64,000 bases of DNA, from NCBI RefSeq assembly GCF_030551255.1, contig NZ_CP130630.1, positions 8,165,501-8,229,500 of the forward strand, given 5' to 3'. The notes beneath the pieces were generated by a model, which saw nothing but the letters and a program-made list of their open reading frames with translations, had not been told where the DNA came from and did no database searches. Both the position numbers and the translations under genes were made by a program. Positions 1 to 41,020 of the stretch are shown here, piece by piece. Source of the stretch: Streptomyces sp. NL15-2K (GTDB taxonomy: Bacteria > Actinomycetota > Actinomycetes > Streptomycetales > Streptomycetaceae). Positions within the stretch are counted from its first letter, which is position 1, and each line of letters begins with the position of its first letter.

Positions 1-13335
<13,335 letters not shown>

Positions 13336-21688: not shown

Positions 21689-21907
21689 GTGGCCAATCCA
21701 TTCGAGGATGACAACGCCGAGTACCACGTGCTCGTGAACGACGAGGGCCAGCATTCGCTCTGGCCCGCTTTCGCCGAGATCCCGGCGGGCTGGCGGTCCG
21801 TGCATGGCGCGGCCGCCCGTCAGGAGTGCCTCGACCACGTGAACGAACACTGGACCGACATGCGTCCGCGCAGCCTCGCCGAGGCCATGGCCGCCCAGTC
21901 GTCCTGA
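21689..21907 (+). CDS. MbtH-like protein
   Basis: 72 aa from the GTG at 21689, with GGAAGGAG eight bases upstream. The family pattern is complete: [19 protein letters not shown] at the N-terminus, [13 protein letters not shown] and a [15 protein letters not shown] end, with the conserved Trp residues. MbtH-like proteins bind A domains and are needed for folding or activity of many of them. It probably serves the NRPS A domains and perhaps the stand-alone A-T-TauD protein. It is the first gene of the 18-kb + strand series. Confidence 0.97.
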
Positions 21908-21968
21908 AACAGAGCTGCAACTCCTGCGTCGGCCATATGACGACCGAACCACCTAGGAGAAAAGAACC

Positions 21969-22220
21969 ATGTCGACCATCACCAGCGACCGCCGCGCGGC
22001 CATCAAGGAAATAGTCTGCGACATCCTTGAGCTCGAAGAGGACGAGGTCACGGAAACCAGCCTCTTCATCGACGACCACGGTGCCGACTCGCTGCGCGCC
22101 ATCGAAATCCTGGCCTCCTTGGAGAAGGAGTTCGGCATCACCATCGACCAGTCCGAGCTGGCTCAGATGATCAACCTCGAGGCGGTCTACAAGGTGGTCG
22201 CCGAGGCGCCCGTCCGCTGA
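21969..22220 (+). CDS. Acyl carrier protein of the type II PKS
   Basis: 83 aa, with AGGAGAAAAGAACC before the ATG. The phosphopantetheine motif GADSLRAIEIL places the attachment Ser at residue 41. The sequence is acidic and of normal ACP length. It lies 47 bases before the first ketosynthase gene and is the only free-standing ACP in the window, so it should carry the growing polyketide for both ketosynthases, the ketoreductase and the dehydratases. Confidence 0.97.
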   Translation: MSTITSDRRAAIKEIVCDILELEEDEVTETSLFIDDHGADSLRAIEILASLEKEFGITIDQSELAQMINLEAVYKVVAEAPVR

Positions 22221-22267
22221 CCCGTGCCCAGCAGCTCTGTCGATCCCAAGGTCTGAAGGGGAAACAG

Positions 22268-23524
22268 ATGTCCTCAGCAAGCCCCGGCGCCGGAACCGGG
22301 AAACGCCGGGTGGTTCTCACCGGCTTCGGAGTGATCTCCAGTATCGGTATCGGGGCCGAGGAATTCACCGGCAGTCTGCGGGCGGGCCGTAGCGGCGTCA
22401 GTCCGATATCGGTGTTCGACGTAGAGGGCTTCGCGCACGTCAACGGGTGCGAGGTCACGGGGTTCGAACCCGAGCAGTGGATCTCCCGCACTCCCCTGCG
22501 GGAGCTGGGGCGCGCCAGCCGCTTCGCCGTCGCGGCGGCGCGGATGGCGGTGCAGGACGCTGGTCTGGATCCGGTGGAACTCGCCGGCCGACGGGGACTG
22601 ATCTCCGTCGGCACCACGGACGGCGAGTCCTACGAACTGGACCAGCTGGTGGCCGCCGAACTCGCCGACGGTCCGCAGAACATGGACCCCCAGATCGTCC
22701 GGCGAGTCTCGGCGGCCAGGCTCTCCACGGCCATCGCACAGGAACTTGACCTCACCGACGTCGAGGCCCCCACCATCGCGACCGCCTGCTCCGCGGGCAA
22801 CTACGCCATCGGCTACGGCTTCGACGCGGTGAGCTCGGGGGAGGTGGAGTTCGCGCTGTGCGGCGGTGCCGACGCGATGTGCCGCAAGACCTTCACCGGC
22901 TTCTACCGCCTCGGCACCATCGCCCCCGAGCACTGCCAGCCCTTCGACATCGACCGCAAGGGCATCCTCACCGGCGAGGGCGCCGGCGTCCTGGTCCTGG
23001 AGAGCCTGGACTCCGCACTGGCCCGCGGCGCCACCATCTACGCCGAGGTACTCGGCTACGGCCTCAACTGCGACGCGTACCACCAGGTCGCGCCCAACGG
23101 CGACAGCGTCGCGCAGTGCATGAGCATCGCCCTGGCGAACGCCGGGGTGAAGCCCGAGGAGGTCGACCTGATCTCGGCCCACGGCACCGGCACCAAGGCC
23201 AACGACATCACCGAGGCCGGAGCCATCCGCAAGGTGTTCGGCGCCGCGACCCCGCGCACCATCTCCCTGAAGTCGATGCTCGGTCACACCATGGGCGCCG
23301 CGAGCGCGCTCGGGGCGATCGCCTGCGGTCTCGCCATCACCCACGGCTTCATCCCGCCGACCATCAACCACCACCGCACCGACCCGGAGTGCGAGATCGA
23401 CTGCGTGCCCAACCACGCCGTCGACGCCGACCTCAGGATCGTCCAGAACAACGGCCTCGCCTTCGGCGGCAACAACGCCATCGTGATCCTCGGCAAGTAC
23501 GAGGAGGACGGTGACCTCCGATGA
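22268..23524 (+). CDS. Beta-ketoacyl synthase (KS), catalytic subunit 1
   Basis: 418 aa, a full-length FabF-like thiolase fold. The catalytic triad is intact: Cys174 (ATACSAGN), His305 (SAHGTGTKAND) and His340 (MLGHTMGAAS). Its stop codon overlaps the next KS start by four bases. In highly reducing type II PKSs a catalytic KS pairs with a chain-length-factor-like partner; two such partners lie downstream. It condenses malonyl-ACP with the growing acyl-ACP. It could be mistaken for FabF, but the tandem KS/CLF/KR/DH setting argues for secondary metabolism. Confidence 0.96.
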   Translation: MSSASPGAGTGKRRVVLTGFGVISSIGIGAEEFTGSLRAGRSGVSPISVFDVEGFAHVNGCEVTGFEPEQWISRTPLRELGRASRFAVAAARMAVQDAGLDPVELAGRRGLISVGTTDGESYELDQLVAAELADGPQNMDPQIVRRVSAARLSTAIAQELDLTDVEAPTIATACSAGNYAIGYGFDAVSSGEVEFALCGGADAMCRKTFTGFYRLGTIAPEHCQPFDIDRKGILTGEGAGVLVLESLDSALARGATIYAEVLGYGLNCDAYHQVAPNGDSVAQCMSIALANAGVKPEEVDLISAHGTGTKANDITEAGAIRKVFGAATPRTISLKSMLGHTMGAASALGAIACGLAITHGFIPPTINHHRTDPECEIDCVPNHAVDADLRIVQNNGLAFGGNNAIVILGKYEEDGDLR

Positions 23525-24651
23525 CGTACCCGATCCTCGGCATCGGGGCGGTCGCCGGCATCGGCGCCGACCCCGACGCGATCTTCGACAGCCTCTGCGC
23601 CGGCCGCAGCGGACTCGCGCCGCTGCGCGCCTTCGACCGCTCCCGCTTCAACGCCCAGCAACTCTTCGAGATCGACGACCGGCAGACCGACGGCGTCGAC
23701 GAACCGGGCCGTGCCACCCGCTTCCTCGTCGAGGCGATCCGGCAGGCCGCCGAGGACGCGGGACTGCCCGAGGACCTCGCGGGCATCCCGGTGCTCGTCG
23801 GCACCGGCCTGCGCGAACTGCGGACCCTGGAGCTGTGGTGGCGCGACGGCGTCCCGCTCGACTCCGACGGACTGCACTTCGAGAACGCGCTGCGGCGCCA
23901 CTTCGGCGCCATCGACACCCACACCTTCGCGGGCGCCTGCTCGGCCTCCCTGTACGCCCTCGCGCTCGCCTGGGACCTGCTGGAACTCGGTGAGGCGGAG
24001 ACGGTCGTCGTGGCCGGCTGCGACGTGGTCACGGAGAGCATGTTCGGCCAGGCCGACCGGGTCCAGTTCGATCCGCCGTCCTCGGTACGCCCCTTCGACA
24101 AGGACCGCCAGGGCACCATCCTCGGCGAGGGCGCCGCAGCCGTCGTCCTGAGCCGTTCCGCCCCCGCCGGCCGCCCGGTCCGCGGCCGGCTGCGCTCGGT
24201 GGCCGTCAACTGCGACGCCCACCACCAGACCGCTCCCGACCCGGACGGTGTCGAGGACGCCGTCCGCCAGGCACAGGCACAGGCCGAGGTCACGCCCGCG
24301 GACATCGACCTGGTGGTGCTCCACGGCACCGGCACCCCCCTCAACGACCGCACGGAGGCCGCCGTGACCGCGCGGGTCTTCGACGGCCCCGGACCTGCCC
24401 TCACCGGCATCAAGTCGCTGACCGGACACACCTCCGGCTCGGCCGGGCTGCTCAGCCTGATCGTGGCCCTGTGCTCCCTGGACCGAGGCCTGGTGCCGCC
24501 CATCGCGGGCCTGGCCGAGCCGCTGCCCGAGGCCGCGGAACTGCGGCTGGTGGCCGGCGAGCCCCTGGCGGCGCCGGTGCGCCTGGCCCAGATCAACAGC
24601 TTCGGCTTCGGCGGCGTCAACGCCGTCGCCATCGTGGGAGGTGCCGCATGA
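23521..24651 (+). CDS. Beta-ketoacyl synthase (KS), catalytic subunit 2
   Basis: 376 aa, shorter than subunit 1 but with the complete triad: Cys140 (GACSASLY), His268 (VLHGTGTPLND) and His303 (LTGHTSGSAG). It is translationally coupled to both neighbours by ATGA overlaps. A second KS distinct from the first suggests either different chain-length stages, or one KS for initiation and one for extension. Its direct downstream neighbour is a Cys-less KS-like protein, the likely partner of this subunit. Confidence 0.94.
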   Translation: MTYPILGIGAVAGIGADPDAIFDSLCAGRSGLAPLRAFDRSRFNAQQLFEIDDRQTDGVDEPGRATRFLVEAIRQAAEDAGLPEDLAGIPVLVGTGLRELRTLELWWRDGVPLDSDGLHFENALRRHFGAIDTHTFAGACSASLYALALAWDLLELGEAETVVVAGCDVVTESMFGQADRVQFDPPSSVRPFDKDRQGTILGEGAAAVVLSRSAPAGRPVRGRLRSVAVNCDAHHQTAPDPDGVEDAVRQAQAQAEVTPADIDLVVLHGTGTPLNDRTEAAVTARVFDGPGPALTGIKSLTGHTSGSAGLLSLIVALCSLDRGLVPPIAGLAEPLPEAAELRLVAGEPLAAPVRLAQINSFGFGGVNAVAIVGGAA

Positions 24652-25538
24652 CGCTCGCCGTCACCGGGGTCGCCGTCGCCCTGCCCGGCGCGGCCGACGC
24701 GCGCGCCCTGCTGCACACCGCCCGCCCCGGCGCCGACCCGGTCGACCCCACGGCCCTGATCGGCAGGAAGGGGCTGCGCTTCAAGGACCGGGCCACCCAG
24801 CTGGGACTGCACCTCGCCCACGCGGCGCTCACCGACGCCGGAGTCCTCCAGGACGGCGAACTGACCGTCCCCTCGGGCCGGTTGGGCACCGTGGTCAGCT
24901 CGAACCTCGGCAACGTGGACACCGTGTGCCGGGCCGTGGAGACCATAGCCAAGGAGTCCACCAGCGCCCTCAGCCCGATGGACACCCCCAACGCCTCCAG
25001 CAACATCATCGCCTCGGAGACCGCGATCCGCTACGGACTGCGCGGGCCCAACCTGACGGTGTGCAACGGACGTTCCTCGGGTCTGGACGCGATCCGCTGG
25101 GCCGCCCTGATGCTCCGTACCGGCCGCGCCGACCACATCCTGGTCACCGGCGTCGAACCGGACAACGAGGTGACCCGGCGGCTCGTCGACGGACCGGTGG
25201 CCGACGGCGGCGCCGCCCTCGTCCTCAGCCGCGACGCCTCCACCCGCGCCAAAGCCCTGCTCGGCCCGGTGCTGCGCACCGCCCGGCCGGCCGACACCGC
25301 CGAGCGGCTCACGCGGCAGGCGCCCGGGGGAGAGCTCTGGCTCAGCACCGAGGAACACCCCGTGCCCGGGGCCGCGCGACGGATCGCGCTCACCGGCTGG
25401 GGCGAACTCTCCGGCGCCCTCGGTGTGGTGCAGTGCGCCGCCGCGGCCGGTTGGTTCGCCGAGGGACACAACGGTCCGGCGTACGCCCTGGCCGGTGCGG
25501 CCGGAGCGGTCCTGCTCGCCCCGGAGCGCACCCCATGA
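24648..25538 (+). CDS. Chain-length-factor-like ketosynthase, no catalytic Cys
   Basis: 296 aa from the ATG at 24648, overlapping the previous stop codon. The fold is that of a shortened KS, but the nucleophile position in TVCNGRSSGLDA is Arg142 and both catalytic His motifs are missing. Such subunits pair with a true KS and set chain length in type II PKSs. It is short for a CLF (usually about 400 aa), and the C-terminal half in particular is compressed. Its activity must depend on a partner, most simply the KS encoded just upstream. Confidence 0.88.
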   Translation: MTLAVTGVAVALPGAADARALLHTARPGADPVDPTALIGRKGLRFKDRATQLGLHLAHAALTDAGVLQDGELTVPSGRLGTVVSSNLGNVDTVCRAVETIAKESTSALSPMDTPNASSNIIASETAIRYGLRGPNLTVCNGRSSGLDAIRWAALMLRTGRADHILVTGVEPDNEVTRRLVDGPVADGGAALVLSRDASTRAKALLGPVLRTARPADTAERLTRQAPGGELWLSTEEHPVPGAARRIALTGWGELSGALGVVQCAAAAGWFAEGHNGPAYALAGAAGAVLLAPERTP

Positions 25539-26308
25539 CGAACGTGGTGCTGCTCCACGGGCTCGCCAACAACGAGGCGATCTGGGCGCCGCTCGCCGGG
25601 CACTGGCGGGCCGGCCTGGACATCCACGCGCCCCGGCTGCCCTGGCACGGTGGCGGGATCGCCGACTGGCGCCACGAGACCGACTCGGCGGCCCGGCTCC
25701 AGGACGTGCTCGACGCGATTCCCGGCGGTGCGGGCGTGGTGGTCGCCCACTCCTTCAGCTCGCTGGTCCTCCTCGAACTGCTCAGCCGCCGGGCCGCCGC
25801 CGCCGACCCGCTGGACGTACCGGCCGTCGTCCTCGTCAACCCCTTCTACCGCAGCGACGCGGAGTCGTTCCACTGGAACATGATCGCCCCGACCCTGGAC
25901 GACTTCCCGCGCACCATGGCCGAGTCCATCCGGCTGCGGACGTCCGGCCACACCATCGAGCCGGAGCTCCTCGCGGACATGGCCCGGCGCATGACCGAGT
26001 GGATCGGCCCCTACGGCTGGCTCCGTTTCTTCGACACCTATCTGCGCACCCCGCTGTTCCGGGTGGACCTGGTCGAGGCCCCCGCCCTGGTGATCGGCGG
26101 CGCGGCCGACCGGTCCGCACCCGCCGCGGAGGCACGCCACCTCGCCGCCCGGCTGCCGGCCGGAGAGTCGGTGACGGTGCCCGGCTGCGGTCACTTCCCG
26201 ATGCTCGAACGGCCCGACTGGTTCACCGGCGCCGTGCACGCCTTCCTCGACCGGATCCCGGATCGCACCCGGCCCCTGGCAGGCACCCGGCCCCTGGCAG
26301 GCACCTGA
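25535..26308 (+). CDS. Alpha/beta hydrolase in the PKS operon
   Basis: 257 aa from the ATG at 25535, coupled by ATGA to the CLF-like gene. N-terminal VVLLHGLANN (oxyanion region), nucleophile Ser73 in AHSFSS, a lid region from about residue 110 to 185, the acid in IGGAADRS and the final His in GCGHFPMLE form a normal triad. It could release or edit acyl chains on the ACP, or move an acyl or aminoacyl group between carriers. Sequence alone does not decide. The C-terminus has a short duplicated RPLAGT produced by a tandem DNA repeat, probably harmless. Confidence 0.88.
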   Translation: MTNVVLLHGLANNEAIWAPLAGHWRAGLDIHAPRLPWHGGGIADWRHETDSAARLQDVLDAIPGGAGVVVAHSFSSLVLLELLSRRAAAADPLDVPAVVLVNPFYRSDAESFHWNMIAPTLDDFPRTMAESIRLRTSGHTIEPELLADMARRMTEWIGPYGWLRFFDTYLRTPLFRVDLVEAPALVIGGAADRSAPAAEARHLAARLPAGESVTVPGCGHFPMLERPDWFTGAVHAFLDRIPDRTRPLAGTRPLAGT

Positions 26309-26365
26309 CCCCGCCACGGCCGGATCCCGTCCGCCCCGATACGCCCCGACACGAAGGAGTCCGTG

Positions 26366-27373
26366 ATGGGCCCGATGCCCCATCCTGCTGTCACGGCGCT
26401 GCTGGAGACCCCGACGACGGGGCGGCTGCGCCCCCTCTTCGAAGGCAACAACATCAGCTTCGCCATCGGCTTCAAGCACATCAACTACGTTGCCGAGGCA
26501 GCGGTCCTGAACCACTTCCGGGAGGCGGGGCTGCCCGTCGGCGACCTCTACCGGCGCTACGGGCTGGGGTTCGACGTGGTCGACATCCACTCCCGGCTCG
26601 GCGCGCTGCTCGCCGTCGACGACGAGGTGGAGGCGGTCGTCACCCCGGCCACCAAGGACGCCGCGGACCGGCTCCGCTTCAAGGTCGAGCTGTTCGTCGA
26701 GCGCGACGGCAAGCGCGTCAAGTGCGCGGGCTCCACGATCGTGGTGGCGCTGCGCGTCGACGACCACATCAAGCCCGAGGAGCCCTGGCCGGCCGGCCTC
26801 GAACGGTTCACCACCGCCCGCCTGGGCACCGGGGACCGCCTGGAGATCGCGGCCACCCCGCGGCCGTACGGCGAGTTCACCGCGGGCCGCGGCACCAGCG
26901 CCGACCCCGTCCTGAGCGAACTCATCGGCGAGACCAACGCGTTCGGCTGGCGCTGGCGGATGGGCTACTTCTACTGCCACTTCAACGAGCGCGTCCAGAT
27001 GTCCGGCTTCCTGCGGGTGATGGAGGAGGTGGAGGACCTCTTCCTCGCCGACCGGGGCCTGGCCATCAAGGAGGTCCTCGACACCCGCGGCTGGATCCCC
27101 GTGGTCACCCAGTCCCGTATCGAACTCCTCGACGAGACGATCATGGAGGAGGAGCTCTACACCGTCTACACCGTCGAGAACGTCTTCAAGACGCTGCTCT
27201 ACACCACCCGCATGGACTGCTACGTACTGCGCGACGGGCAGCTGGTGAAGACCGCCACCGGCACCATCACCCACGGCTACCTCCACGAAGTGGCGCCCAA
27301 CCAGTGGGAGATGGCCGAGTTCGACGAGTCCACCGTCACCGCCCTCACCACCCCCCGCAAGGCGGCGTCATGA
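26366..27373 (+). CDS. Double-hotdog protein (thioesterase/dehydratase fold) of the PKS
   Basis: 335 aa from the ATG at 26366, with GAAGGAG upstream; a GTG one codon earlier is also possible. The first half looks like a 4-hydroxybenzoyl-CoA thioesterase-type hotdog (FAIGFKHINYVAEAAVLNHFREAG, residues about 30-110). The second half repeats the fold (from about residue 190). The usual catalytic Asp of the thioesterase family is not obvious (FKHINY in place of D-x-x-G-H-V-N). It may act on acyl-ACP as a dehydratase, isomerase or thioesterase; I cannot choose. It is encoded between the two CLF-like genes and overlaps the second. Confidence 0.75.
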   Translation: MGPMPHPAVTALLETPTTGRLRPLFEGNNISFAIGFKHINYVAEAAVLNHFREAGLPVGDLYRRYGLGFDVVDIHSRLGALLAVDDEVEAVVTPATKDAADRLRFKVELFVERDGKRVKCAGSTIVVALRVDDHIKPEEPWPAGLERFTTARLGTGDRLEIAATPRPYGEFTAGRGTSADPVLSELIGETNAFGWRWRMGYFYCHFNERVQMSGFLRVMEEVEDLFLADRGLAIKEVLDTRGWIPVVTQSRIELLDETIMEEELYTVYTVENVFKTLLYTTRMDCYVLRDGQLVKTATGTITHGYLHEVAPNQWEMAEFDESTVTALTTPRKAAS

Positions 27374-28476
27374 GTACCCCGGTGACCGACCGGCCGGTGA
27401 TCACCGGCTGGTCGGCCGTCTCCCCGCACGGCATCGGCGCCGATGCCCTCGCCGAGGGCCTGCGCACCCAGTCCCCCACGGTCGCGCCCGTCGACACCGC
27501 ACGCTGGAAGGTACCCACCTCCCGGGCCCACCTGGTCCCCGGCTTCGAGACCCGCGAGGTGCTCGGCAAGAAGGGCACCCGCTCCATGGACCGGGTCACC
27601 GGCCTCGCCGTGGCCGCCGTGGGCTCCCTGCTCGACCAGCCCGGTTCGGTACGGGAGTCGGAGACCGGGGAACGCGCCGCGCTGGTGCTCGCCACCACCA
27701 CCGGCAGCGCCGCCAGCATGATGGACTTCACCCGCAGCTCGCTCGAAGGCGCCCGGCCCTACGACGTCGACCCGGCGGTGATGCCCAACGCCGTGATGAA
27801 CTGCGCGGCCGGCCAGTGCGCCATCTGGTACGGCATCAGGGGCCCCAACACCACGCTCGCCGGCGGCCGCGCGGCCGGACTGCTCGCCCTCAACTACGCG
27901 ACCCGGCTGCTGTCCTCGGGCCGCGCGGACACCGTGCTCTGCGCCGCCGCCGAGGAGTACTCGGCCGCCCGCCACTGGCTGGAGTGGCACAGCCGGGGCC
28001 CCGAAGCCCCGGGCGTCGCGCTCGGCGAGGGCGCGGCCGTGCTTCTGGTCCAGCCCGCCGCCGCGGTCACCCCCGAGCGCCCCGCGCTCGCCGAGATCCT
28101 CGCGGTACGCACCCGGGTGGCCACCGGCAAGCAGGCCCGCCCGGCCCTGGAGGCCTGCGTACGCTCCGCCCTGGAGGCCGCCGCGGTGACCCGCGACGAC
28201 GTGTGGGCCGCGAGCCCGTCGGACGCGCCGGGGCTCCTCGGCCACCTGGAGCGCGAGGTCCTCGGCCAGGTCTGCGGGACCGAGGCGACGGAGCGGGTCC
28301 CGGCCGTCGGCCGGCTCGGTGACGTCTCCGCAGCCTCCGGCTCGTTCCAGATCGCCATGGTCCTCGCCACCGCCGCCGCGACCCCCGCGGCCGCCGGCCA
28401 GGTCGCCGTGGTGACCTCCGCCGACCGCGACGGCTCCCTCGCCTGCGCGGTGCTGAGACTACGGGACGCCCGATGA
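27370..28476 (+). CDS. Second chain-length-factor-like ketosynthase, no catalytic Cys
   Basis: 368 aa from the ATG at 27370 (ATGA overlap). The KS fold is clear at the N-terminus (VITGWSAVSPHGIG), but the nucleophile position in LAGGRAAGLLAL is Arg167 and the HGTGT motif is gone (SPSDAPG). This is the same Cys-to-Arg change as in the 24648 gene, although overall similarity looks low. With two catalytic KSs and two CLF-like proteins, the cluster can form two KS-CLF heterodimers, as reported for highly reducing type II PKSs that make polyene or cinnamoyl chains. Confidence 0.9.
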   Translation: MSTPVTDRPVITGWSAVSPHGIGADALAEGLRTQSPTVAPVDTARWKVPTSRAHLVPGFETREVLGKKGTRSMDRVTGLAVAAVGSLLDQPGSVRESETGERAALVLATTTGSAASMMDFTRSSLEGARPYDVDPAVMPNAVMNCAAGQCAIWYGIRGPNTTLAGGRAAGLLALNYATRLLSSGRADTVLCAAAEEYSAARHWLEWHSRGPEAPGVALGEGAAVLLVQPAAAVTPERPALAEILAVRTRVATGKQARPALEACVRSALEAAAVTRDDVWAASPSDAPGLLGHLEREVLGQVCGTEATERVPAVGRLGDVSAASGSFQIAMVLATAAATPAAAGQVAVVTSADRDGSLACAVLRLRDAR

Positions 28477-30854: not shown

Positions 30855-30866
30855 CAGGAGAGAGCG

Positions 30867-33800
30867 ATGACCACCACCGGAACACCCCAGCGGACCGTCC
30901 CGCGCTGGGTACCCCCACCGCCGGCCGGGCAGCCGGCCCGGGCCGACTGGGCCGAGCTGATCCGCCCGGTGCCGCTCCGCCTCGCCGCCCGGGCCCGGCT
31001 GCTGGCCCGTCGCTCGGGCACGGGCTGGGAGACCGTGCCGCTCGCCGCCCACACCGCCGTCCTGTCCGCGCTGAGCGGCGAACGCGCGGTGGTGAGCGGC
31101 TACCTCGCGCCCGGCCGGGCCGCGGCCGGGGCCCGGCCTGTGACCCTCTCGCTCGACGACGAGACCTGGCGCGAACTGCTCGCGGCCGCCGACCGCGCCG
31201 CAGCCGTGCCCGCCGAGGGTGCCTTCGAGACCGTACTGGACCTCGCACACACCGAGGGCGACCTCCCCGAGGCCCCTGCGCAGACCGTGCTCAGCGCCAC
31301 GCTCCGGTACGGCCCGAAGGGACCCGCCCTGCTGATCGGCCACCGCACCGACGTGCTGGACGGCGACGCGGCCGACCGGATCGCCGGGTACTACCTGGCG
31401 GCCGTCGAACAGCTGACGCGGGAGCCGGACGCGCCGGCCCGCGGCGAGAGCCTGCTCTCCGCCGCCGAGTACCACCACCAGATCTTCGAACTCTCCGGCC
31501 CGCGGCGGCCGTTGCCGGACAAGCGGTTCCACGAGCTGTTCGAGGAGCAGGCCGCGCGACGGCCCGCGGACATCGCGGCCGTGCACGGCACCCGCACCTG
31601 GACGTACGAGGAACTCAACACCCGGGCCAACCGGATCGCCCACGCCCTGCTCGCCCGCGACCTGGGAGCCGAGGCGGTGGTGGCCGTGGTCACCGAGCGC
31701 AACCTGGACTGGCTCGCCTCGGTCATCGGCATCTTCAAGGCCGGCGCCGCCTATCTGCCCATCGAGCCGCACGCCCCCGCGGACCGGATGGCCCGCACCC
31801 TGGTCCGCGCCGACTGCCGCCTGGTGCTCACCGAGGACGGCGGCCCGGGCCACCTGGAGCAGGCCGCGCCGCCCGGCGTCGAACTCCTCAAGGCCGGTGC
31901 TGCGTACGCCGAGGGGCGCCCAGGCCACGACCCGCGCGTCCCCGTCGGCCCCGGTCAGCTCGCCTACCTGTACTTCACCTCGGGCTCCACCGGAGAACCC
32001 AAGGGCGCGATGTGCGAGCACGCCGGTTTCCTCAACCACCTGTACGCCAAGATCGACGACCAGGGCCTCGGCGAGGGCCAGGTGGTCGCCCAGACCGCGC
32101 CGCAGTCCTTCGACATCTCCCTGTGGCAGCTGGTCGCGGCCCTGGTCGTGGGAGGGCGCACGCTGATCGTCGAACAGGAGGCGATCCTCGACGTCGACCG
32201 CTACCTCGACACCATCGAGCGCGGCGGAGTCTGCGTGCTCCAGGCGGTCCCCTCCTACCTGGAGGTGGTGCTCAGCCGCCTGGAGGACAGACCCCGGGAA
32301 CTGCCCGCCCTGCGCTGTGTCTCGGTCACCGGTGAAGCGCTCAAGAAGGAACTCACCGCCCGCTGGTTCGCGCGATTCCCGCACATCGCCCTGATGAACG
32401 CCTACGGCCTGACGGAGACCTCGGACGACACCAACCACGAGGTCATGACCTCCGTCCCGGTGTGGGACTCGGTGCCGCTGGGGCACGCGGTCGGCAACGT
32501 CACCGTGTACGTCGTCGACGAGAACCTCCGACCGGTGCCGCTCGGCGCCCCCGGCGAGATCGTCTTCTCCGGCGTCTGCGTGGGACGCGGTTACGTCAAC
32601 GACCCCGAGCGCACCGCACAGGCCTTCGGCGACGACCCGCACCGGCCGGGGCAGCGGCTGTACCGCTCCGGCGACTTCGGGCGCAGGCTGCCCGGCGGCT
32701 CCCTGGAATTCCTCGGCCGCCGCGACGCCCAGATCAAGATCCGTGGCTTCCGGATCGAGATCGGTGAGATCGAGAACCAGATGCTGCGGCTGCCGGGCGT
32801 CCGCGACGGCGCCGTGGTCGTCGTCGAATCCCCCGACAAGGGAGGCCACCTGGTCGGCTTCCAGACCGGTTCGGCCCAGTCGTCCGACGCCCTGCGCAAG
32901 CGGCTGAGCCAGGCGCTGCCGGCGTACATGGTGCCCGACCGGGTCGAACACCTCGACGCGCTGCCGCTCACCGCCAACGGCAAGACGGACAAGCGGGCCC
33001 TGCGCACACTCGCCGCCGAACTCGCCGAACAGGAAGGCGCCGGCCAGGAGCACGAGGCGCCCCGTACCGACACCGAGCGGCGGCTCGCCGAGGCGTGGGC
33101 CGCCGTTCTGCGGCTGCCGCTCGAACGGGTCGGCCGCACCGCCCACTTCTTCGACCTGGGCGGCACCTCCCTGTCCGCGGTGCGGCTCGTGGTACGGATG
33201 GAACGCGCCTTCACGCTGCGCGACGTGACCCGGCGCCCGACGCTCGACGCACTCGCCGCGTTCCTCGACGACCCGCGGGCCGACGCTGGGGCCGGGACCG
33301 TGGCCGAGGGCCCGGAGAACCCCGGCGCGGCCGCCGCGCCCGCCCAGGACGCGGCCGCGGCGCACCGCACCGCCCTGGACGCCACCCCGTTCGAGGTCGT
33401 CAGGACCGAGGGCCGGCCGGCCGTGCTCACCCTCGACGGCCCCGCACCCGACGACCCGGCGGCCTGGTGCGCCGAGCAGGCCGGCCGGCTGCGTGCCACG
33501 GTCGCCGAGCACGGCGCGCTGCTGGTGCGCGGCCTCGGCCTGCGGAACGCGGACACCGTCGCCGGCGTCGGCCGCGCACTCCTGCACCAGGTGATGACCG
33601 AACGCGAGGGCTTCGCGCTGCGCCAACGGCTGGCGGACGGTGTGTACTCCTCCTCCGAGTGGCCCGTCGACCAGCCCATGTGCATGCACCACGAGCTGAG
33701 TTACGCCCGCGAGGTGCCCGGCACCCTGCTCTTCGCCTGCCTCACCGCGCCCGAATCGGGCGGTGTCACCGGCGTCTCGGACTCCTTCGAGGTGCTGCGG

Positions 33801-34349
33801 GCGCTCCCGGCCGACCTGGTCGCCCGCTTCGAGTCCGAGGGCTGGCTCGTCGACCGCAACTACACCAATACCGTGGGCGTCGGCCTCGCCGACGCCTTCG
33901 GCACCACCGACCGCGCGGCCATCGAGGCCTACTGCGCGGCCCGGGGCATCGAGTGCCGCTGGGAGCCGGGCGGCGACCTGCGTACCCGGCAGCGCGCCGC
34001 CGCCGTACTCACCCACCCGGTCACCGGTCGGCGCGGCTGGTTCAACCAGATCGCCTTCCTCAACGAATGGACCCTGGACCCCGTCATCCGGGAGTACCTG
34101 AAGTTCGAGTTCGGCGACGCCGGGCTGCCCTTCAACAGCCGCTACGGCAGCGGCGCCGGCCTCGACGAGGAAACGGTGCTCACCATCAACGGGGTGTACG
34201 AGAAGCACACCCTGCGCGAGCCGTGGCGGACCGGCGACCTCCTGATCGTGGACAACCTCCGGATGGCACACAGCCGGGAGCCCTATGAGGGGGACCGGAG
34301 GATCGCGGTCGTTCTCGGCGACCCGGTCACGGTCCCTCCCCACTCCTGA
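30867..34349 (+). CDS. Stand-alone A-T-TauD protein: amino acid activation with tethered Fe(II)/2-oxoglutarate hydroxylase
   Basis: 1160 aa, with AGGAGAG before the ATG. Residues 1-215 resemble only the C-terminal end of a condensation domain (ending SLLSAAEYHHQIFELSG) and lack HHxxxDG. The A domain spans about 218-720 ([20 protein letters not shown]), with specificity positions read as D-I-W-Q-S-T-A-D-D; its A5 motif is AYGLTETSDD rather than YGPTE. T domain about 735-805, Ser768 in FDLGGTSLSA. TauD/TfdA-type oxygenase about 840-1160: iron ligands His941 and Glu943 (MHHELSY) and His1135 (RMAHSRE). It should load an amino acid, hydroxylate it on the carrier (probably at the beta carbon) and pass it in trans. 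The amino acid is not known. Confidence 0.93.
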   Translation: MTTTGTPQRTVPRWVPPPPAGQPARADWAELIRPVPLRLAARARLLARRSGTGWETVPLAAHTAVLSALSGERAVVSGYLAPGRAAAGARPVTLSLDDETWRELLAAADRAAAVPAEGAFETVLDLAHTEGDLPEAPAQTVLSATLRYGPKGPALLIGHRTDVLDGDAADRIAGYYLAAVEQLTREPDAPARGESLLSAAEYHHQIFELSGPRRPLPDKRFHELFEEQAARRPADIAAVHGTRTWTYEELNTRANRIAHALLARDLGAEAVVAVVTERNLDWLASVIGIFKAGAAYLPIEPHAPADRMARTLVRADCRLVLTEDGGPGHLEQAAPPGVELLKAGAAYAEGRPGHDPRVPVGPGQLAYLYFTSGSTGEPKGAMCEHAGFLNHLYAKIDDQGLGEGQVVAQTAPQSFDISLWQLVAALVVGGRTLIVEQEAILDVDRYLDTIERGGVCVLQAVPSYLEVVLSRLEDRPRELPALRCVSVTGEALKKELTARWFARFPHIALMNAYGLTETSDDTNHEVMTSVPVWDSVPLGHAVGNVTVYVVDENLRPVPLGAPGEIVFSGVCVGRGYVNDPERTAQAFGDDPHRPGQRLYRSGDFGRRLPGGSLEFLGRRDAQIKIRGFRIEIGEIENQMLRLPGVRDGAVVVVESPDKGGHLVGFQTGSAQSSDALRKRLSQALPAYMVPDRVEHLDALPLTANGKTDKRALRTLAAELAEQEGAGQEHEAPRTDTERRLAEAWAAVLRLPLERVGRTAHFFDLGGTSLSAVRLVVRMERAFTLRDVTRRPTLDALAAFLDDPRADAGAGTVAEGPENPGAAAAPAQDAAAAHRTALDATPFEVVRTEGRPAVLTLDGPAPDDPAAWCAEQAGRLRATVAEHGALLVRGLGLRNADTVAGVGRALLHQVMTEREGFALRQRLADGVYSSSEWPVDQPMCMHHELSYAREVPGTLLFACLTAPESGGVTGVSDSFEVLRALPADLVARFESEGWLVDRNYTNTVGVGLADAFGTTDRAAIEAYCAARGIECRWEPGGDLRTRQRAAAVLTHPVTGRRGWFNQIAFLNEWTLDPVIREYLKFEFGDAGLPFNSRYGSGAGLDEETVLTINGVYEKHTLREPWRTGDLLIVDNLRMAHSREPYEGDRRIAVVLGDPVTVPPHS

Positions 34350-34397
34350 CCAGCTCGCCCACCAGCCTCTCCCACCAGTTCTTCGGATGGAGCAATC

Positions 34398-35465
34398 ATG
34401 TCCAGCCCGTCGCTCGTGCCGCCCTTCGCCGTCATCACCGGCGCGCAGGTGGCCCAGGTTCTCACCGGCAGCGAGAAGCAGGTCGTGAACCTGGTCGAAG
34501 ACGTCTACCGGCTGCACGGCCGGGGCGACTCGGTCAACCCGCCCTCGTACTTCCTGCGCTTCCCCGACCGCCCGAGCTCCCGGATCATCGCGCTGCCCGC
34601 CTCGGTCGGCGGCGTCCACCCCACCGACGGCCTGAAGTGGATCTCCAGCTTCCCGGAGAACGTCGCGGCCGGCATCCCGCGGGCCTCCGCGGTCCTCATC
34701 CTCAACGACCACGCGACCGGCTACCCGTTCGCCTGCCTGGAGAGTTCCATCATCAGCGCCTCCAGGACCGCCGCGTCAGCCGCCCTCGCCGCCGACAAGC
34801 TCAAGCGAGGCGAACGCCCCCGCCGCATCGGGTTCATCGGCACCGGACTCATCGCCCGCTACATCCACCACTATCTGGAGGCCACCGACTGGACCTTTGA
34901 CCGGATCGGCGTCCACGACCTGTCCCAGGAGCACGCCGAGGCATTCGCCGGCTACCTCGGCGGCCGCCCCGGCGACGCCTCCGTCGTGGTGCACGAGACA
35001 TCCGAGGAGCTGATCCGGGAGAGCGACCTGGTGGTCCTCGCCACCGTCGCGGGCAGCCCGCACCTGCACGACCCGGCCTGGTTCGCGCACAACCCGCTGG
35101 TCCTCAACGTGTCGCTGCGGGATCTCGCACCGGAGATCCTGCTCGCCTCCGCCAACATCCTCGACGACGTCGAGCACTGCCTGAAGGCGGACACCTCACC
35201 CCATCTCACCGAACAGCTCACCGGCGGGCGCGACTTCATCGACGGCACCCTCTTCGACGTTCTGCAGGGACGGGTCGAACTCCCTGCGGACCGCCCGGTC
35301 GTCTTCTCGCCGTTCGGTCTCGGCGTCCTCGACATCGCCCTCGGGCGCTACGTCCACGACCAACTCCGCGACGCCGGCCGGCTCGGCGTCGTCGACGGCT
35401 TCTTCCACGAGCTCGACCGCTACGGACGCGACCGCGGCCAGGCGGCACCCGAACCCACACGGTGA
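34398..35465 (+). CDS. sbnB: SbnB-like dehydrogenase for L-2,3-diaminopropionate
   Basis: 355 aa, ornithine cyclodeaminase/mu-crystallin fold. A Rossmann NAD site (RIGFIGTGLIARYIH) sits near residues 137-151. SbnB in staphyloferrin B biosynthesis oxidatively hydrolyses N-(1-amino-1-carboxy-2-ethyl)-glutamate to L-Dap and 2-oxoglutarate with NAD+. The partner SbnA-like gene follows after 18 bases, which is the usual pairing and makes Dap production much more likely than ornithine cyclodeamination to proline. It supplies a building block for the NRPS. Confidence 0.93.
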   Translation: MSSPSLVPPFAVITGAQVAQVLTGSEKQVVNLVEDVYRLHGRGDSVNPPSYFLRFPDRPSSRIIALPASVGGVHPTDGLKWISSFPENVAAGIPRASAVLILNDHATGYPFACLESSIISASRTAASAALAADKLKRGERPRRIGFIGTGLIARYIHHYLEATDWTFDRIGVHDLSQEHAEAFAGYLGGRPGDASVVVHETSEELIRESDLVVLATVAGSPHLHDPAWFAHNPLVLNVSLRDLAPEILLASANILDDVEHCLKADTSPHLTEQLTGGRDFIDGTLFDVLQGRVELPADRPVVFSPFGLGVLDIALGRYVHDQLRDAGRLGVVDGFFHELDRYGRDRGQAAPEPTR

Positions 35466-35483
35466 AAAAGTGACGGTGATGAA

Positions 35484-36497
35484 GTGACGGTCATATCCGC
35501 CCCCTACGAGATCAACGTCGACGACGTATTCGTGGATCTGCGGTCTGTCTTCGACGTCCCCCTCTTCCTGAAATACGAGGGAGTCAACCTCGCGGGCTCC
35601 GTCAAGCTGAAGGCCGCCCTGGAAATGGTGCTGGCCGCCGAGCGCGACGGCACCCTGACCCCGGGCGACGTGCTCGTGGAGTCCTCGTCCGGCAACCTCG
35701 GCGTGGCGCTCAGCATGATCGCGGCCCACCGGGGATACGGCTTCGTCTGCGTCACCGACTCCCGCTGCAACCCGGCGAGCCGCCGGCTGATGGAGTCCTT
35801 CGGCGCCCGGGTCCTGGTCATCTCGCGTCCCGACAAGGAACGCGGCCTGCTGGGCGCCCGGATCGACTACGTGCAGCGGCTCGTCGACTTCGACCCGAAC
35901 TACGTCTGGCTCAACCAGTACGTGAACCCGCACAACTGGCTGGCCCACTACCGCTCCACCGGCCCCGCCGTCGCCGCCCAGTTCCCCGAGCTGGACGTGC
36001 TCTTCGTCGGCGCGGGAACCACCGGCACGCTGATGGGCTGCGCCCGCTTCTTCCGGGAGCAACGGCGGCCGGTGCGGATCGTGGCCGTCGACAGCGTGGG
36101 CTCGGTGACCTTCGGCGGCCCCGCCCTTACCCGGCACATCCCCGGACTCGGCGCGGGCGTACGACCGCAGCTGCTCGACGAGGGGCTCGTCGACGAGGTC
36201 GTCATGGTGCCCGAGCGGGACACCCTGGAGAGCTGCCACGCCCTGGCCCGGCGCGGCTTCCTGTTCGGCGGTTCCACCGGCACCGTCGTCAGCGGCGCGC
36301 TGCGCTGGCTGGGCGGCCGGCCCCGGGGCGAGCGGCTCACCGCGGTCGCGCTCTCCCCGGACCAGGGCGACCGCTATCTCGACACGCTGTACGACCCCGA
36401 GTGGGTGGCGCGGCACTTCGGCGCTCCGCACACCTGGGACACGGCGGTTCCGGAGACCTCGGCCGAACTGCCCCAACTGGTCACGAGCGCCGGCTGA
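35484..36497 (+). CDS. sbnA: SbnA-like PLP enzyme (phosphoserine/glutamate condensing) for L-2,3-diaminopropionate
   Basis: 337 aa from the GTG at 35484. Cysteine-synthase-like fold type II PLP enzyme: Lys41 in NLAGSVKLKAA binds PLP, SSSGNLG holds the substrate and GAGTTGTLMG holds the cofactor phosphate. SbnA replaces the phosphate of O-phospho-L-serine with the amino group of glutamate. The adjacent SbnB-like gene gives the next step, and the serA-type gene downstream increases phosphoserine supply. A role as a cysteine synthase is less likely given this setting. Confidence 0.92.
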   Translation: MTVISAPYEINVDDVFVDLRSVFDVPLFLKYEGVNLAGSVKLKAALEMVLAAERDGTLTPGDVLVESSSGNLGVALSMIAAHRGYGFVCVTDSRCNPASRRLMESFGARVLVISRPDKERGLLGARIDYVQRLVDFDPNYVWLNQYVNPHNWLAHYRSTGPAVAAQFPELDVLFVGAGTTGTLMGCARFFREQRRPVRIVAVDSVGSVTFGGPALTRHIPGLGAGVRPQLLDEGLVDEVVMVPERDTLESCHALARRGFLFGGSTGTVVSGALRWLGGRPRGERLTAVALSPDQGDRYLDTLYDPEWVARHFGAPHTWDTAVPETSAELPQLVTSAG

Positions 36498-36579
36498 GTC
36501 GGCCCGCCCGACCGCAGGCCCCTCACGGAACCCTTTCGACCCTCATTTCGAGACTCATTTCGAGACAAGGAATCGCGTC

Positions 36580-38172
36580 GTGGACAAGCCAGTCGTACTG
36601 ATCGCCGAGGAACTCTCTCCGGCCACCGTCGACGCCCTGGGGCCGGACTTCGAGATCCGGCACTGCGCGGGCGCCGACCGGGGCGCGCTCCTCGACGCGC
36701 TCCCGGCGGCCGACGCGGTACTCGTGCGCAGCGCCACCCGCATGGACGCGGAGGCCATCGCGACGGGCACGCGGCTCAAGGTGATCGGCCGGGCCGGGGT
36801 CGGCCTGGACAACGTGGACGTGCCCGCCGCGTCCCGGGCCGGCGTCATGGTGGTCAACGCCCCCACCTCCAACATCGTCAGCGCGGCCGAGCACACCGTC
36901 GGCCTGCTGCTCGCGGTGGCCAGGAACATCCCGCAGGCCGACGCGGCGCTCAGGGAAGGCCGCTGGCAGCGCAGCCGGTTCACCGGTGTCGAGCTCGCGG
37001 ACAAGACGCTCGGCATCGTCGGGCTGGGCAGGATCGGTTCCCTGGTGGCCCGCCGGATGGCGGCGTTCGGGATGACACTGCTCGCCTACGACCCCTACGT
37101 ACCGGCCGGATACGCCGAGCGGACGGGGGTGCGCGCCGTCGCGCTCGACACGCTCCTCGACGAGGCGGACTTCCTGACCGTCCATCTGCCGAGGACCCCG
37201 GAGACGACCGGCCTGATCGGTTTCGACGCGCTGCACCGGGTCAAGCCGGACGTACGGATCGTCAACGCGTCGCGTGGCGGGATCGTCGACGAGGCGGAGC
37301 TGTACGCCGCGCTGAAGGAGGGGCGGATCGCGGGCGCGGCCATGGACGTGTTCGCCACCGAGCCGTGCACCTCCTCCCCGCTGTACGAGCTCGACAACGT
37401 GGTCGTCACCCCGCACCTGGGCGCGGGCACCGCCGAGGCGCAGGAGCGGGCCGGCGTCTCGGTCGCCAGGTCGGTCCGGGAGGCGCTGTCCGGACGGTTC
37501 GTCCCGGAGGCGGTCAACGTGCGGATGGGCGAGGTCGACGCCGCACTCGACCCGTGGCTGACCCTGGCCGAGCGCCTCGGCCGGCTCTTCACGGCGACCG
37601 CCGGCGGGCTGCCGGGGCAGTTGCGGGTGACCGTGTCCGGCGAGATCGCGCGCCACGACGTCGCGGCCCTCGAACTGGCCGGCCTCAAGGGCGTGCTGGG
37701 TCAGGTCGTCGAGGGCGGTGTCAGCTATGTCAACGCCCCGCTGATCGCCCAGGAGCGGGGCCTGGGCACCGAGGTGCGCTCCGGCCCCGACAGCCCGGTG
37801 CACCGCAGCCTCGTCCGAGTCGACGGGACTCTGCCGTCCGGTGAGCCGGTCTCGGTGACCGGCACCCTGACCGGGCTGCACTCCGGCGCACGCCTCGTGG
37901 AGATCTGCGGCTACGAGGTCGATGTCGCCCTCGACGGCGACCTGGCCTTCTTCCTCGCCCCCGACCGGCCCGGAGTGATCGGCGCGGTCAGCGAGGCCCT
38001 CGGGCAGGCGGGGGTCCCCGTCGAGTCCCTGCGGATCGCCCGGGGCGCCGGAGCCGACGGGACGGCCCTGGTCGCCCTCGGACTGGGCGGACCGGCAGCT
38101 CAGGCGGTCCTCGACGACGCGTCCGCCGCGATCGAAGCCACCCGTGGCTGGAGCCTGGAGCAGACCGGATGA
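36580..38172 (+). CDS. serA: D-3-phosphoglycerate dehydrogenase (SerA), long form, BGC-embedded
   Basis: 530 aa from the GTG at 36580, the usual length of actinobacterial SerA. NAD-binding GLGRIGSLVARR near residues 147-158, catalytic Arg in NASRGGIVDE and Glu/His in the HLGAGTAEA region, then an intervening domain and a C-terminal ACT domain (about 450-530, FLAPDRPGVIG) for serine feedback. It makes 3-phosphohydroxypyruvate, the precursor of phosphoserine; serC is not in the window. Being downstream of sbnB-sbnA it is probably a dedicated precursor-supply copy. A 12-base direct repeat (CTCATTTCGAGA twice) lies just before its ribosome site. Confidence 0.94.
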   Translation: MDKPVVLIAEELSPATVDALGPDFEIRHCAGADRGALLDALPAADAVLVRSATRMDAEAIATGTRLKVIGRAGVGLDNVDVPAASRAGVMVVNAPTSNIVSAAEHTVGLLLAVARNIPQADAALREGRWQRSRFTGVELADKTLGIVGLGRIGSLVARRMAAFGMTLLAYDPYVPAGYAERTGVRAVALDTLLDEADFLTVHLPRTPETTGLIGFDALHRVKPDVRIVNASRGGIVDEAELYAALKEGRIAGAAMDVFATEPCTSSPLYELDNVVVTPHLGAGTAEAQERAGVSVARSVREALSGRFVPEAVNVRMGEVDAALDPWLTLAERLGRLFTATAGGLPGQLRVTVSGEIARHDVAALELAGLKGVLGQVVEGGVSYVNAPLIAQERGLGTEVRSGPDSPVHRSLVRVDGTLPSGEPVSVTGTLTGLHSGARLVEICGYEVDVALDGDLAFFLAPDRPGVIGAVSEALGQAGVPVESLRIARGAGADGTALVALGLGGPAAQAVLDDASAAIEATRGWSLEQTG

Positions 38173-38675
38173 GCACCTACGATTGGCTGATGGACCAACT
38201 GGAGCGCAGACAGGCGCGCTTCCGGCTCATCGACCACGTCCCGGAGGGCCGCACGGAGCCCGCGAGCGTCCTGCGCGGACACGCCCTCGCCCAGGCGGCC
38301 AAGTGCCTGGTGGTACGCGTCGCCACGGGCCGGCGCTCCCGGCGCTACGTCCTCGCGGTCGTGCCCGGCGACCGCAAGGTCGACCTGGAGGAACTCAGGG
38401 ACATGTACGCGGGTACGGAGGCCTCGTTCGCGGCGCGGGACGTGGCCGAGCGGCTGGCGGGCAGCGTCAGCGGTTCGGTGATGCCCTTCGCCCGCCATCC
38501 CGAGCTGGATCTGGTGGCCGACCCTGAACTGCTCGCCCACGACGAGATCTTCTTCAACGCGGCCCGGCTCGACCGGTCGGTGGCCCTGGCCACGGACGAC
38601 TACGTGGCGATGGCCCTGCCACGCGTGCGGCCCATCGCCCAACGCCCCCTCGCCCAGAGCACGACAGGAGGATGA
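38169..38675 (+). CDS. YbaK/ProX-type aminoacyl-tRNA deacylase-like protein
   Basis: 168 aa, coupled to serA by an ATGA overlap. The YbaK/EbsC fold is recognised from the N-terminal helix, IDHVPEGRTEPASVLRGH, the central AAKCLVVRV with the conserved Lys, VVPGDRKVDLEELRDMYAG, and the GSVMPFA stretch. Family members hydrolyse mischarged aminoacyl-tRNAs. In a cluster that makes Dap and a hydroxylated amino acid, the natural guess is removal of these serine-like or modified residues from tRNA to protect the producer. No signal peptide or extra domain is seen. The cluster role is inferred; the family call is sound. Confidence 0.85.
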   Translation: MSTYDWLMDQLERRQARFRLIDHVPEGRTEPASVLRGHALAQAAKCLVVRVATGRRSRRYVLAVVPGDRKVDLEELRDMYAGTEASFAARDVAERLAGSVSGSVMPFARHPELDLVADPELLAHDEIFFNAARLDRSVALATDDYVAMALPRVRPIAQRPLAQSTTGG

Positions 38676-38679
38676 CAGG

Positions 38680-39462
38680 ATGAGCGTCGGCGCCCACCGC
38701 ACCGCACCGTCCGCAGTCGTCGACAACGACAGGTGGTTCCGTAGGTACTCGGTGACGGCCGCTCCCCGCCGCAGGCTGCTGGTCCTGCCGCACGCGGGCG
38801 GTTCGGCCAGCTTCTTCCACGCCTGGGGCACCGCGTTCGACAGCGGGACGGAGGTACTGGTCGCGCGTTACCCCGGCCGGCACGACCGGCTGACCGACCC
38901 GTGCGTCGACTCCATGGAGGAGCTTGCCGACCGGGTGACCGCGGCCCTCCTGCCCTTCCTCGACGTGCCGGTGACGCTCTTCGGGCACAGCATGGGCGCG
39001 TCACTCGCCTACGAGGTGGCACTGCGCCTGCACGGCAGGCACGCGGTGCGCCCGGCGGCGCTCCACGTGTCGAGCCGCAGGCCCCCGCATCGGCTGACTC
39101 CGCGAGAGCTGCACAAGCAGGGCGACGAGGCACTGATCGAGGAGGTCCGCCGGCTGGGCGGCACCGACGAATCGCTCCTCACCGACCCGGACCTGAGGGA
39201 GATCGTCCTGCCGGCGATCCGCGCCGACTTCACGATCGTCGGAACCTACGGCCCGCGCGACGCCGCCCCGGTCGACTGCCCCGTGTACGCGTACATCGGG
39301 GACCAGGATCCGTCCACCTCGGTCCACGACATGTCGGACTGGTCCGACGTCACGACCGAGGGGTTCCACCTGGACGTGCTGCCCGGCGGCCACTTCTACC
39401 TCGTCGACCACCAGGAGACCCTGGTCCGGACGATCGCGGACCGCCTGCCCCCCACCGACTGA
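38680..39462 (+). CDS. Type II thioesterase (NRPS/PKS editing)
   Basis: 260 aa from the ATG at 38680 (ACAGGAGGATG ahead). TEII hallmarks: LLVLPHAGGSASFFHAW, nucleophile Ser104 in FGHSMGASLAYE, an Asp in GDQDP and the final His in GGHFYL. TEIIs clear misprimed or stalled carrier domains of NRPS and PKS enzymes. It is the last + strand gene of the BGC; the hairpin and MITE-like remnant that follow separate it from sdaA. Confidence 0.95.
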   Translation: MSVGAHRTAPSAVVDNDRWFRRYSVTAAPRRRLLVLPHAGGSASFFHAWGTAFDSGTEVLVARYPGRHDRLTDPCVDSMEELADRVTAALLPFLDVPVTLFGHSMGASLAYEVALRLHGRHAVRPAALHVSSRRPPHRLTPRELHKQGDEALIEEVRRLGGTDESLLTDPDLREIVLPAIRADFTIVGTYGPRDAAPVDCPVYAYIGDQDPSTSVHDMSDWSDVTTEGFHLDVLPGGHFYLVDHQETLVRTIADRLPPTD

Positions 39463-39571: not shown

Positions 39572-40950
<1,379 letters not shown>

Positions 40951-41020
40951 GGGGACTCCTCAGAACGGGGTGGGGCGCCGTGCCCACGTACGAGTGTGCG
41001 CGGCGCCCCGCAAAAAGGAA

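Follow-up and report, generated by a model that had tools for sequence, protein, structure and literature searches.

The window analysed here is a stretch of 64,000 nucleotides from the soil bacterium Streptomyces sp. NL15-2K (positions 8165501-8229500 of NZ_CP130630.1, the largest contig of the 12.4-Mb genome; negative coordinates lie left of the window start). It contains an operon (21689-39462) in which genes for a type II polyketide synthase (PKS) are followed by a stand-alone adenylation-thiolation-oxygenase protein (A-T-TauD) and by genes for synthesis of 2,3-diaminopropionic acid (Dap), beside a nonribosomal peptide synthetase (NRPS). The whole is read, with more confidence than doubt, as a cluster for a cinnamoyl decapeptide in which Dap would be activated and oxidised by A-T-TauD and delivered in trans to NRPS modules 1, 6 and 7, which have no A domain. 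A preliminary description of this DNA had proposed a possibly undescribed lipopeptide cluster; it was right in kind, and the novelty apparently lies in a Dap-type loader serving three A-less modules, not in the PKS or the YbaK-like protein. Judged by its sequence, the cluster is a genuine and, it appears, undescribed representative of the known cinnamoyl peptide class, notable for its variant of trans-loading and very probably with an undescribed ten-residue product.

NRPS modules

Three genes between about -23403 and 13335 encode NRPS proteins of 2130 aa (N1), 5186 aa (N2) and 4927 aa (N3). By motif, N1 reads C-T-C-A-T-E, N2 C-A-T-E-C-A-T-C-A-T-(E)-C-T-E and N3 C-T-E-C-A-T-E-C-A-T-C-A-T-TE (C, condensation; E, epimerization; TE, thioesterase). 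Module order and missing A domains, like gene content and conservation, were observed directly: there are ten condensation modules, and modules 1, 6 and 7 are without an A domain, a feature kept in relatives. The distance from C motif to T motif was 350-369 aa at these three modules and 828-924 aa at modules with an A domain (spacings were read by motif; values of 22, 160 and 171 were spurious motif matches). The window itself holds the 3' part of N3 (1-13335, plus strand; gene start about -1448), that is modules 7-10 as C-T(no A)-E, C-A-T-E, C-A-T and C-A-T followed by TE, in agreement with the NRPS with two E domains and a TE described earlier; the sequence left of the window completes it as N1-N3 and adds tailoring genes. 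C-T modules without A and a stand-alone A-T protein, the two marks of a trans-complemented NRPS, were both found; apart from N1-N3, the scanned stretch showed no A domain other than that of A-T-TauD.

The specificity codes of modules 2-5 were kept in 10/10 genomes (DLTKVGEVG, DALL[IV]GAVA, DLTKLGVVN and DVAQ[AG]G..., the last being DVAQAGVV in the query), and those of modules 8-10 varied among relatives, module 8 being read in 7/10 (DVMEVALV in the query). We take these codes to stand for D-Asn at module 2, a D-aromatic or D-aliphatic residue at 3, an Asp-like residue at 4, an aromatic-like one at 5, and Val-like and Ile-like residues at 9 and 10; residue 8 is presumably D-configured. The HHxxxDG motif of the module 5 E domain was lost in 9/10 genomes and kept only in Streptomyces sp. 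CB03234 (G004), so that L is predicted at residue 5 where the motif is lost and D where it is kept.

The A-T-TauD loader and Dap supply

A-T-TauD (30867-34349, plus strand) carries the code DIWQSTADD and an HxE...H oxygenase motif. The code was identical in the query, nine relatives and Saccharothrix sp. NRRL B-16314 (G012), and among the best 120 of 340 matched family proteins, 107 of the 111 A segments that were read have DIWQxTxD[D/E]; the four deviating segments belong to the five lowest-ranked of the listed members. In the TauD facial triad, H and E were present in 121/121 aligned sequences and the distal H and the R in 119, the other two having gaps, as in an Fe(II)/2-oxoglutarate oxygenase (HxD/E...H plus Arg). 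TauD matches at E <= 1e-70 were obtained in 148/394 Streptomycetaceae genomes. Within the 30 best loci (the window's own among them), SbnB directly follows TauD in 28 (the exceptions are L128, with a fragment, and L130, with none), and SbnA is present in 27; the proteins P0222 and P0231 are fusions of TauD with a domain from the Pfam family of SbnB. G012 also encodes a second stand-alone A domain (DIWELTADD), which adjoins another SbnB-SbnA pair about 60 kb away.

Both Dap enzymes of the operon, SbnB (34398-35465; TIGR03944, 410.8 bits, cut-off 326.9) and SbnA (35484-36497; TIGR03945, 384.9 bits, cut-off 350), exceed the curated NCBIfam cut-offs. They are followed by a phosphoglycerate dehydrogenase for phosphoserine supply (SerA, 36580-38172; TIGR01327, 555.3, cut-off 454); all three genes are on the plus strand. 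Because the constant code, the SbnB/SbnA neighbourhood, the TauD-SbnB fusions and the second pair of G012 point the same way, the substrate of A-T-TauD is most likely Dap, and the protein most likely oxidises Dap and serves the A-less modules in trans. The preliminary description had predicted a peptide with Dap and a hydroxylated residue. The Dap supply does lie in the same block, and a separate hydroxylated residue is probably not needed: since the A-T-TauD code is nearly fixed and SbnB/SbnA adjoin it in other kinds of cluster, the two are probably one building block. A siderophore-type TauD forming β-hydroxy-Asp was considered and rejected, as the neighbouring A domain has the code DIWQSTADD and not the DLTK-type code of Asp or Asn.

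The loader also occurs apart from this cluster. A cassette of a 719-858-aa protein, A-T(-TE), TauD, SbnB and SbnA is found in two further copies in the window's genome (G000:C1 8758379 and 9089914; L156 8563-16625 and L155 9849-17759) and in G286, G328 and G080 (see also L158-L162). Its first protein, scanned in all of these but G286, was assigned by NCBIfam to TIGR02353 (Pls/PosA family) in two cases, and Pfam gave hexapeptide repeats in two more; such cassettes may yield an oxidised poly-Dap-like product. In G208 (L168-L171, G208:C1 920000-989999), A-T-TauD, SbnB and SbnA lie beside a large NRPS with no match to the first ketosynthase (KS1) of the window at E <= 1e-120, so the loader may work with other lines. 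A second cinnamoyl-type family, G204 (L174-L176, G204:C1 5980000-6039999), has separate A-T and TauD proteins and a final C-T-TE module without A. Tentatively, and at rather less than even chance, we picture a general Dap-loading and oxidising cassette (A-T, TauD, SbnB and SbnA, elsewhere beside a Pls/PosA-type terminal-domain or hexapeptide protein) that was captured by a cinnamoyl lipopeptide cluster, with A-T-TauD delivering a not-yet-described oxidised Dap to three A-less modules of one decapeptide line.

Type II PKS genes

Gene identities were assigned from Pfam and NCBIfam scans and from the translations of the window proteins. All operon genes are on the plus strand and many overlap by 4 bp. 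The operon begins at 21689, as had been stated, with a gene for an MbtH-like protein (21689-21907; PF03621, 100.7 bits) and not with the acyl carrier protein (ACP), which follows at 21969-22220. Next come KS1 (22268-23524), resembling the ishigamide ketosynthase (KS; 6kxd_A), and a second ketosynthase, KS2 (23521-24651), in both of which the active-site Cys and two His were seen by eye. A short KS-like chain-length factor (CLF1, 24648-25538) adjoins KS2, and after an alpha/beta hydrolase (ABH, 25535-26308) and a 336-aa double-hotdog protein of FatA/LnmK-like fold, a companion of the isomerase (HD, 26363-27373), lies CLF2 (27370-28476), resembling the ishigamide CLF (6kxd_B); Arg replaces the active-site Cys in both CLFs by eye. 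The two FabZ-like dehydratases (DH) differ in that DH1 (28473-28880) has the GHYP motif and DH2 (28877-29416) lacks its His. In G007, G009 and G010 one 281-334-aa frame spans the place of DH1 and DH2, and the two may be fused there. A ketoreductase (KR, 29413-30156) and a DSBA-family cis-trans isomerase (30153-30854) complete the PKS part; behind the loader and Dap genes stand a YbaK-like aminoacyl-tRNA deacylase (38169-38675; PF04073 above cut-off, TIGR00011 at 41.3 below its cut-off of 153) and a type II thioesterase (TEII, 38680-39462; Ser nucleophile, GHSMG).

Every gene of the list given earlier (ACP, two KS, two CLF, two DH, KR, isomerase, A-T-TauD, SbnB, SbnA, SerA, YbaK and TEII) was present by Pfam or NCBIfam, and MbtH, ABH and HD, which it had overlooked, have to be added. 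The pattern is not due to chance, as other genomes have their operon genes in this order too. No enoyl reductase was seen among the operon genes, which bears out that part of the description. The 'DsbA-like isomerase' does belong to the DSBA family, and is of the kappa-GST/HCCA isomerase type: with a single Cys in 233 aa it has no CxxC, an identity as DsbA thiol-disulfide isomerase was rejected for this reason, and its best solved relatives are 2-hydroxychromene-2-carboxylate isomerases. The structural model of HD (mean pLDDT 88) matched double-hotdog proteins of the FatA/LnmK kind.

KS1 scored 572 bits to 6kxd_A (next entry 376) and CLF2 277 bits to 6kxd_B, the two chains of the ishigamide KS-CLF structure (PMC7949117). 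Membership of KS1 in the polyene type II clade of Iga11, Sky17 and Cal30 was assigned with the bit score to the ishigamide KS as the single measure. A scan with an HD alignment, one genome per species, matched 164 relatives, of which the best 80 loci were kept; with identity cut-offs for each gene, and with some contigs short, ABH was counted in 80, CLF2 in 75, KS1 in 74, KS2, CLF1, DH2 and isomerase in 73 each, and DH1 and KR in 70 each. Gene order was common to most of these loci, and an L031-like group has ABH, HD and isomerase before ACP. In G204, ABH and HD form one fused 606-aa protein. Co-occurrence was counted in the sample of 394 genomes (141 KS1-like, 65 HD and 87 isomerase rows, 86 of the last being counted and one half-row dropped): an isomerase lay within 15 kb of HD in 62/65 places, HD was found at only 2/59 KS places without a near isomerase, and 24/86 isomerases had no HD nearby.

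A type II PKS with KS, KR, DH, ACP and isomerase clustered with an NRPS has been used as a mining rule for cinnamoyl-containing nonribosomal peptides (PMC6510318), and the window cluster has this composition. The isomerase was reported there for the cal and sky clusters and not for other type II PKSs, and the gene composition of published cinnamoyl peptide clusters matches the kit (PMC6510318, PMC9321520, PMC9381841). The PKS half is therefore not novel; its two KS/CLF pairs, KR, two DH and kappa-GST-like isomerase are the kit of known cinnamoyl peptides. Where the preliminary description had left the acyl chain as polyene- or cinnamoyl-type, the sequence clearly favours the cinnamoyl type: the isomerase is a mark of cinnamoyl kits, and HD is almost always found with it. 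We infer that ABH and HD act after the isomerase, toward the ring.

Conservation in other genomes

Twelve of the 80 HD loci have A-T-TauD (>=55%), SbnB and SbnA, and ten of them were read about 54 kb upstream, L011 and L014 being left out. A stand-alone TauD, P450, N1-N3, the ABC genes, kinase and PKS-Dap operon were found in the same order in 9/9 Streptomyces relatives (G002-G010), with A-T and TauD as separate genes in 5/9 (G006-G010). An RHS-repeat protein was whole or cut by the stretch border in all nine, and a transporter was seen in the five where the sequence reached it. The tenth, G012 (L104-L106 with L028), combines the kit with A-T-TauD, SbnB and SbnA. S. poonensis (G001, L009) and Streptomyces sp. 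WAC 01529 (G011, L026) have the kit (76-97% identical), YbaK and TEII, and at their loci NRPS, A-T-TauD, SbnB, SbnA and SerA are together absent; these kits may make a free cinnamoyl lipid. Within the 394-genome sample, KS1, HD, TauD and SbnB at >=77% stood on one contig only in the window's genome and in G300 (same coordinates as G006).

YbaK was present in 9/80 PKS loci with 10-kb flanks and absent from 3/9 close relatives. The earlier remark that no cluster was known with this exact set, A-T-TauD and YbaK included, holds insofar as no described or characterised cluster with the gene set was found in the open-licence literature, MIBiG not being part of the search; YbaK is no special mark of it.

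Alternative explanations

Several observations weigh against A-T-TauD as a Dap loader for modules 1, 6 and 7. The residues given for modules 2-5 and 8-10 are putative assignments from the codes. An A-less module was not read directly in two relatives (module 1 of G003, where the motif was missed, and module 7 of G005, where the N-terminus of N3 was not called), and the module 6 spacing of query and G005 came out of the multi-genome scan as a spurious 22 (361 aa in the query by direct reading). Inspection by eye revealed no shuttle of the SyrC kind; it did not include a comparison with SyrC itself. The TEII has a Ser nucleophile, and as both TEII and YbaK persist where the NRPS is absent, neither is specific to trans-loading. 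β-Hydroxylation of Dap would give an unstable carbinolamine, which is why TauD may catalyse some other reaction. In G204, SbnB and SbnA are about 44 kb away from the loader, at the opposite end of the cluster; G111 has TauD beside an NRPS and no SbnB, which speaks against a strict rule, and beside the loader G140 has neither SbnB nor SbnA and G303 no SbnA. No paper was found that ties DIWQSTADD to Dap, the assignment otherwise resting on gene neighbourhood. The missing experimental code match, together with G111 and G140, would suit a loader that activates and oxidises another amino acid (e.g. β-lysine or another basic one) while an integrated A domain, of module 5 or 8, takes Dap. The query's module 8 has an acidic pocket residue, and the A domain of a poly-Dap synthetase was predicted to take β-lysine and when assayed preferred Dap, so that code prediction is weak here. 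We nevertheless judge this substitution improbable: TauD-SbnB-SbnA recurs in contexts without such an NRPS, including G208, TauD is fused to an SbnB-family domain in two proteins, and the module 8 code varies among relatives whereas that of A-T-TauD is constant.

A linear polyene acyl chain without a cinnamoyl group would agree with the descent of the nearest solved relative, the ishigamide KS-CLF, from a polyene pathway, with the isomerases that have no HD near, and with the absence of a recognisable phytoene-desaturase-like enzyme among the genes scanned; the authors of epoxinnamide likewise found no homologue of named ring-closing enzymes in their cluster. The reported restriction of the isomerase to cal and sky among type II PKSs and its near-constant proximity to HD make this chain quite improbable. 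Still less probable is that PKS and NRPS make separate products. The halves can part, since G001 and G011 hold the kit without the NRPS, G012 holds kit and loader with no such NRPS in the 54 kb read upstream (a further point against the favoured assignment), and in G208 an NRPS stands with a loader of related type where a KS1-type PKS is lacking; on the other side, all parts form one syntenic block in the query and nine relatives, and deletion of a KS, KR or NRPS gene of kitacinnamycin abolished its products (PMC6510318). Whether the cinnamoyl decapeptide is made in this strain is a different matter. A 165-bp miniature inverted-repeat transposable element (MITE) with 20-bp perfect inverted ends (L003 253-417, window about -19747 to -19583) interrupts the A domain of N1 module 2 without shifting the frame; it is absent from the same gene in 9/9 relatives, and 54 stretches of the genome match it, inverted self-matches included. 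Upstream of mbtH, remnants of a second TEII gene (19385-21308, minus strand), called in 9/9 relatives, include a tandem array of a 247-bp unit inside 20335-21267. These two changes make production in the strain uncertain, and they may mean that the cluster is impaired. That they abolish production altogether and leave a relic is on balance doubtful, although the likeliest of these alternatives: the MITE is in frame, at the site of a loop between conserved motifs in relatives, the remaining NRPS and PKS frames are open, and the other TEII (38680) is present.

Comparison with described systems

In the kitacinnamycin (kcn), skyllamycin (sky) and WS9326A (cal) clusters, too, a multimodular NRPS is accompanied by a type II PKS with KS/CLF pairs, KR, DH, ACP and isomerase (PMC6510318); compared by description, the window differs in its ten modules (nine are reported for kitacinnamycin; PMC6510318), three of them A-less, its Dap genes and A-T-TauD. 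KS1 and CLF2 are closest to the solved KS-CLF of ishigamide (iga), to which the window adds a second KS/CLF pair, isomerase, HD and ABH. Coprisamides C and D, likened by product, are also cinnamoyl peptides with Dap (PMC13192320). Identity with the coprisamide cluster was rejected, as six residues are given for coprisamide C in a table of that paper and ten modules are present here.

Trans-loading has precedents in syringomycin (SyrB1/SyrC) and in ramoplanin and enduracidin, where a module without a working A domain is served by a separate A-T protein (PMC8949500), as is proposed here; the window differs from these systems in its three A-less modules, in the oxygenase fused to the loader and in the lack of a recognised shuttle. 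In pachycephalamide a stand-alone A domain (PchP7) has been proposed to serve two modules in trans and a type II PKS to supply the acyl group (PMC11446937); there the residues are two Val and the PKS has a locus of its own, whereas the window has three modules, a Dap-type code and TauD. According to a 2022 review, TauD domains had so far been found only in siderophore lines, always adjoining Asp-selective A domains (PMC8949500). Serobactin and cupriachelin likewise have a TauD-type oxygenase joined to an NRPS, and the window has DIWQSTADD instead of an Asp-selective code; it thus fits the trans-loading precedents and departs from the siderophore TauD rule. The poly(L-diaminopropionic acid) synthetase PDAPs, likened by description, resembles the loader in that an SbnA/SbnB-like pair (NjxA/NjxB) supplies an A-T protein whose assayed A domain prefers Dap; PDAPs is a single protein with transmembrane and C domains, and its paper mentions neither TauD nor a dioxygenase.

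Proposed pathway

Substrate, oxidation site, transfer route and product are inferred as follows. The type II PKS kit would build an ACP-bound polyene, the isomerase would bring one of its double bonds into the Z form, and HD and ABH together would help to convert the chain into a 2-alkenylcinnamoyl unit, which would be handed to the first C domain of the ten-module NRPS. SbnA and SbnB would make Dap from phosphoserine supplied through SerA; A-T-TauD would activate Dap, its TauD domain would oxidise the carrier-bound residue, and the oxidised Dap would be delivered in trans to modules 1, 6 and 7. The remaining positions would follow the codes, presumably about D-Asn2, D-aromatic/aliphatic3, Asp-like4, aromatic-like5, D-8, Val-like9 and Ile-like10. 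The TE would release, and probably cyclise, the decapeptide, and the second, stand-alone TauD and the P450 may add further oxidations.

If this is true, a single loader would supply three modules of the same assembly line. Such an arrangement is rare (one loader for two modules has already been proposed for pachycephalamide; PMC11446937) and would help to establish which properties allow an A-T protein to load carrier domains other than its own. NRPS-joined TauD oxygenases would extend from aspartate in siderophores to Dap, whose oxidised form would be new chemistry. With the cluster kept in at least ten genomes, a producing strain should be findable. The relatives offer natural controls, with A-T and TauD separate in five of the nine and two further genomes having the kit without NRPS or loader.

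Neighbouring genes

Left of the NRPS genes lie the P450, the stand-alone TauD and a PA14/RHS-repeat protein; a regulator of LuxR type, recognised by eye, and a pair of ABC/FtsX transporter genes are on that side too. The separate TauD and the P450, like the A-less modules and the decayed parts, were not noted in the preliminary description. Between N3 and the operon are a protein without Pfam match that is present in most relatives (13461-14588, plus strand), an ABC-2 permease (15156-16007), a DrrA-like ABC ATPase (16022-16960) and a sensor histidine kinase (17177-18427), the last three on the minus strand, and a conserved protein without Pfam match (18475-19194, plus strand). Beside the operon, which has the serine-pathway genes SerA and SbnA, serine dehydratase, serine hydroxymethyltransferase, a small gene and GcvT (39568-43955, minus strand) form a group of serine/glycine housekeeping genes.

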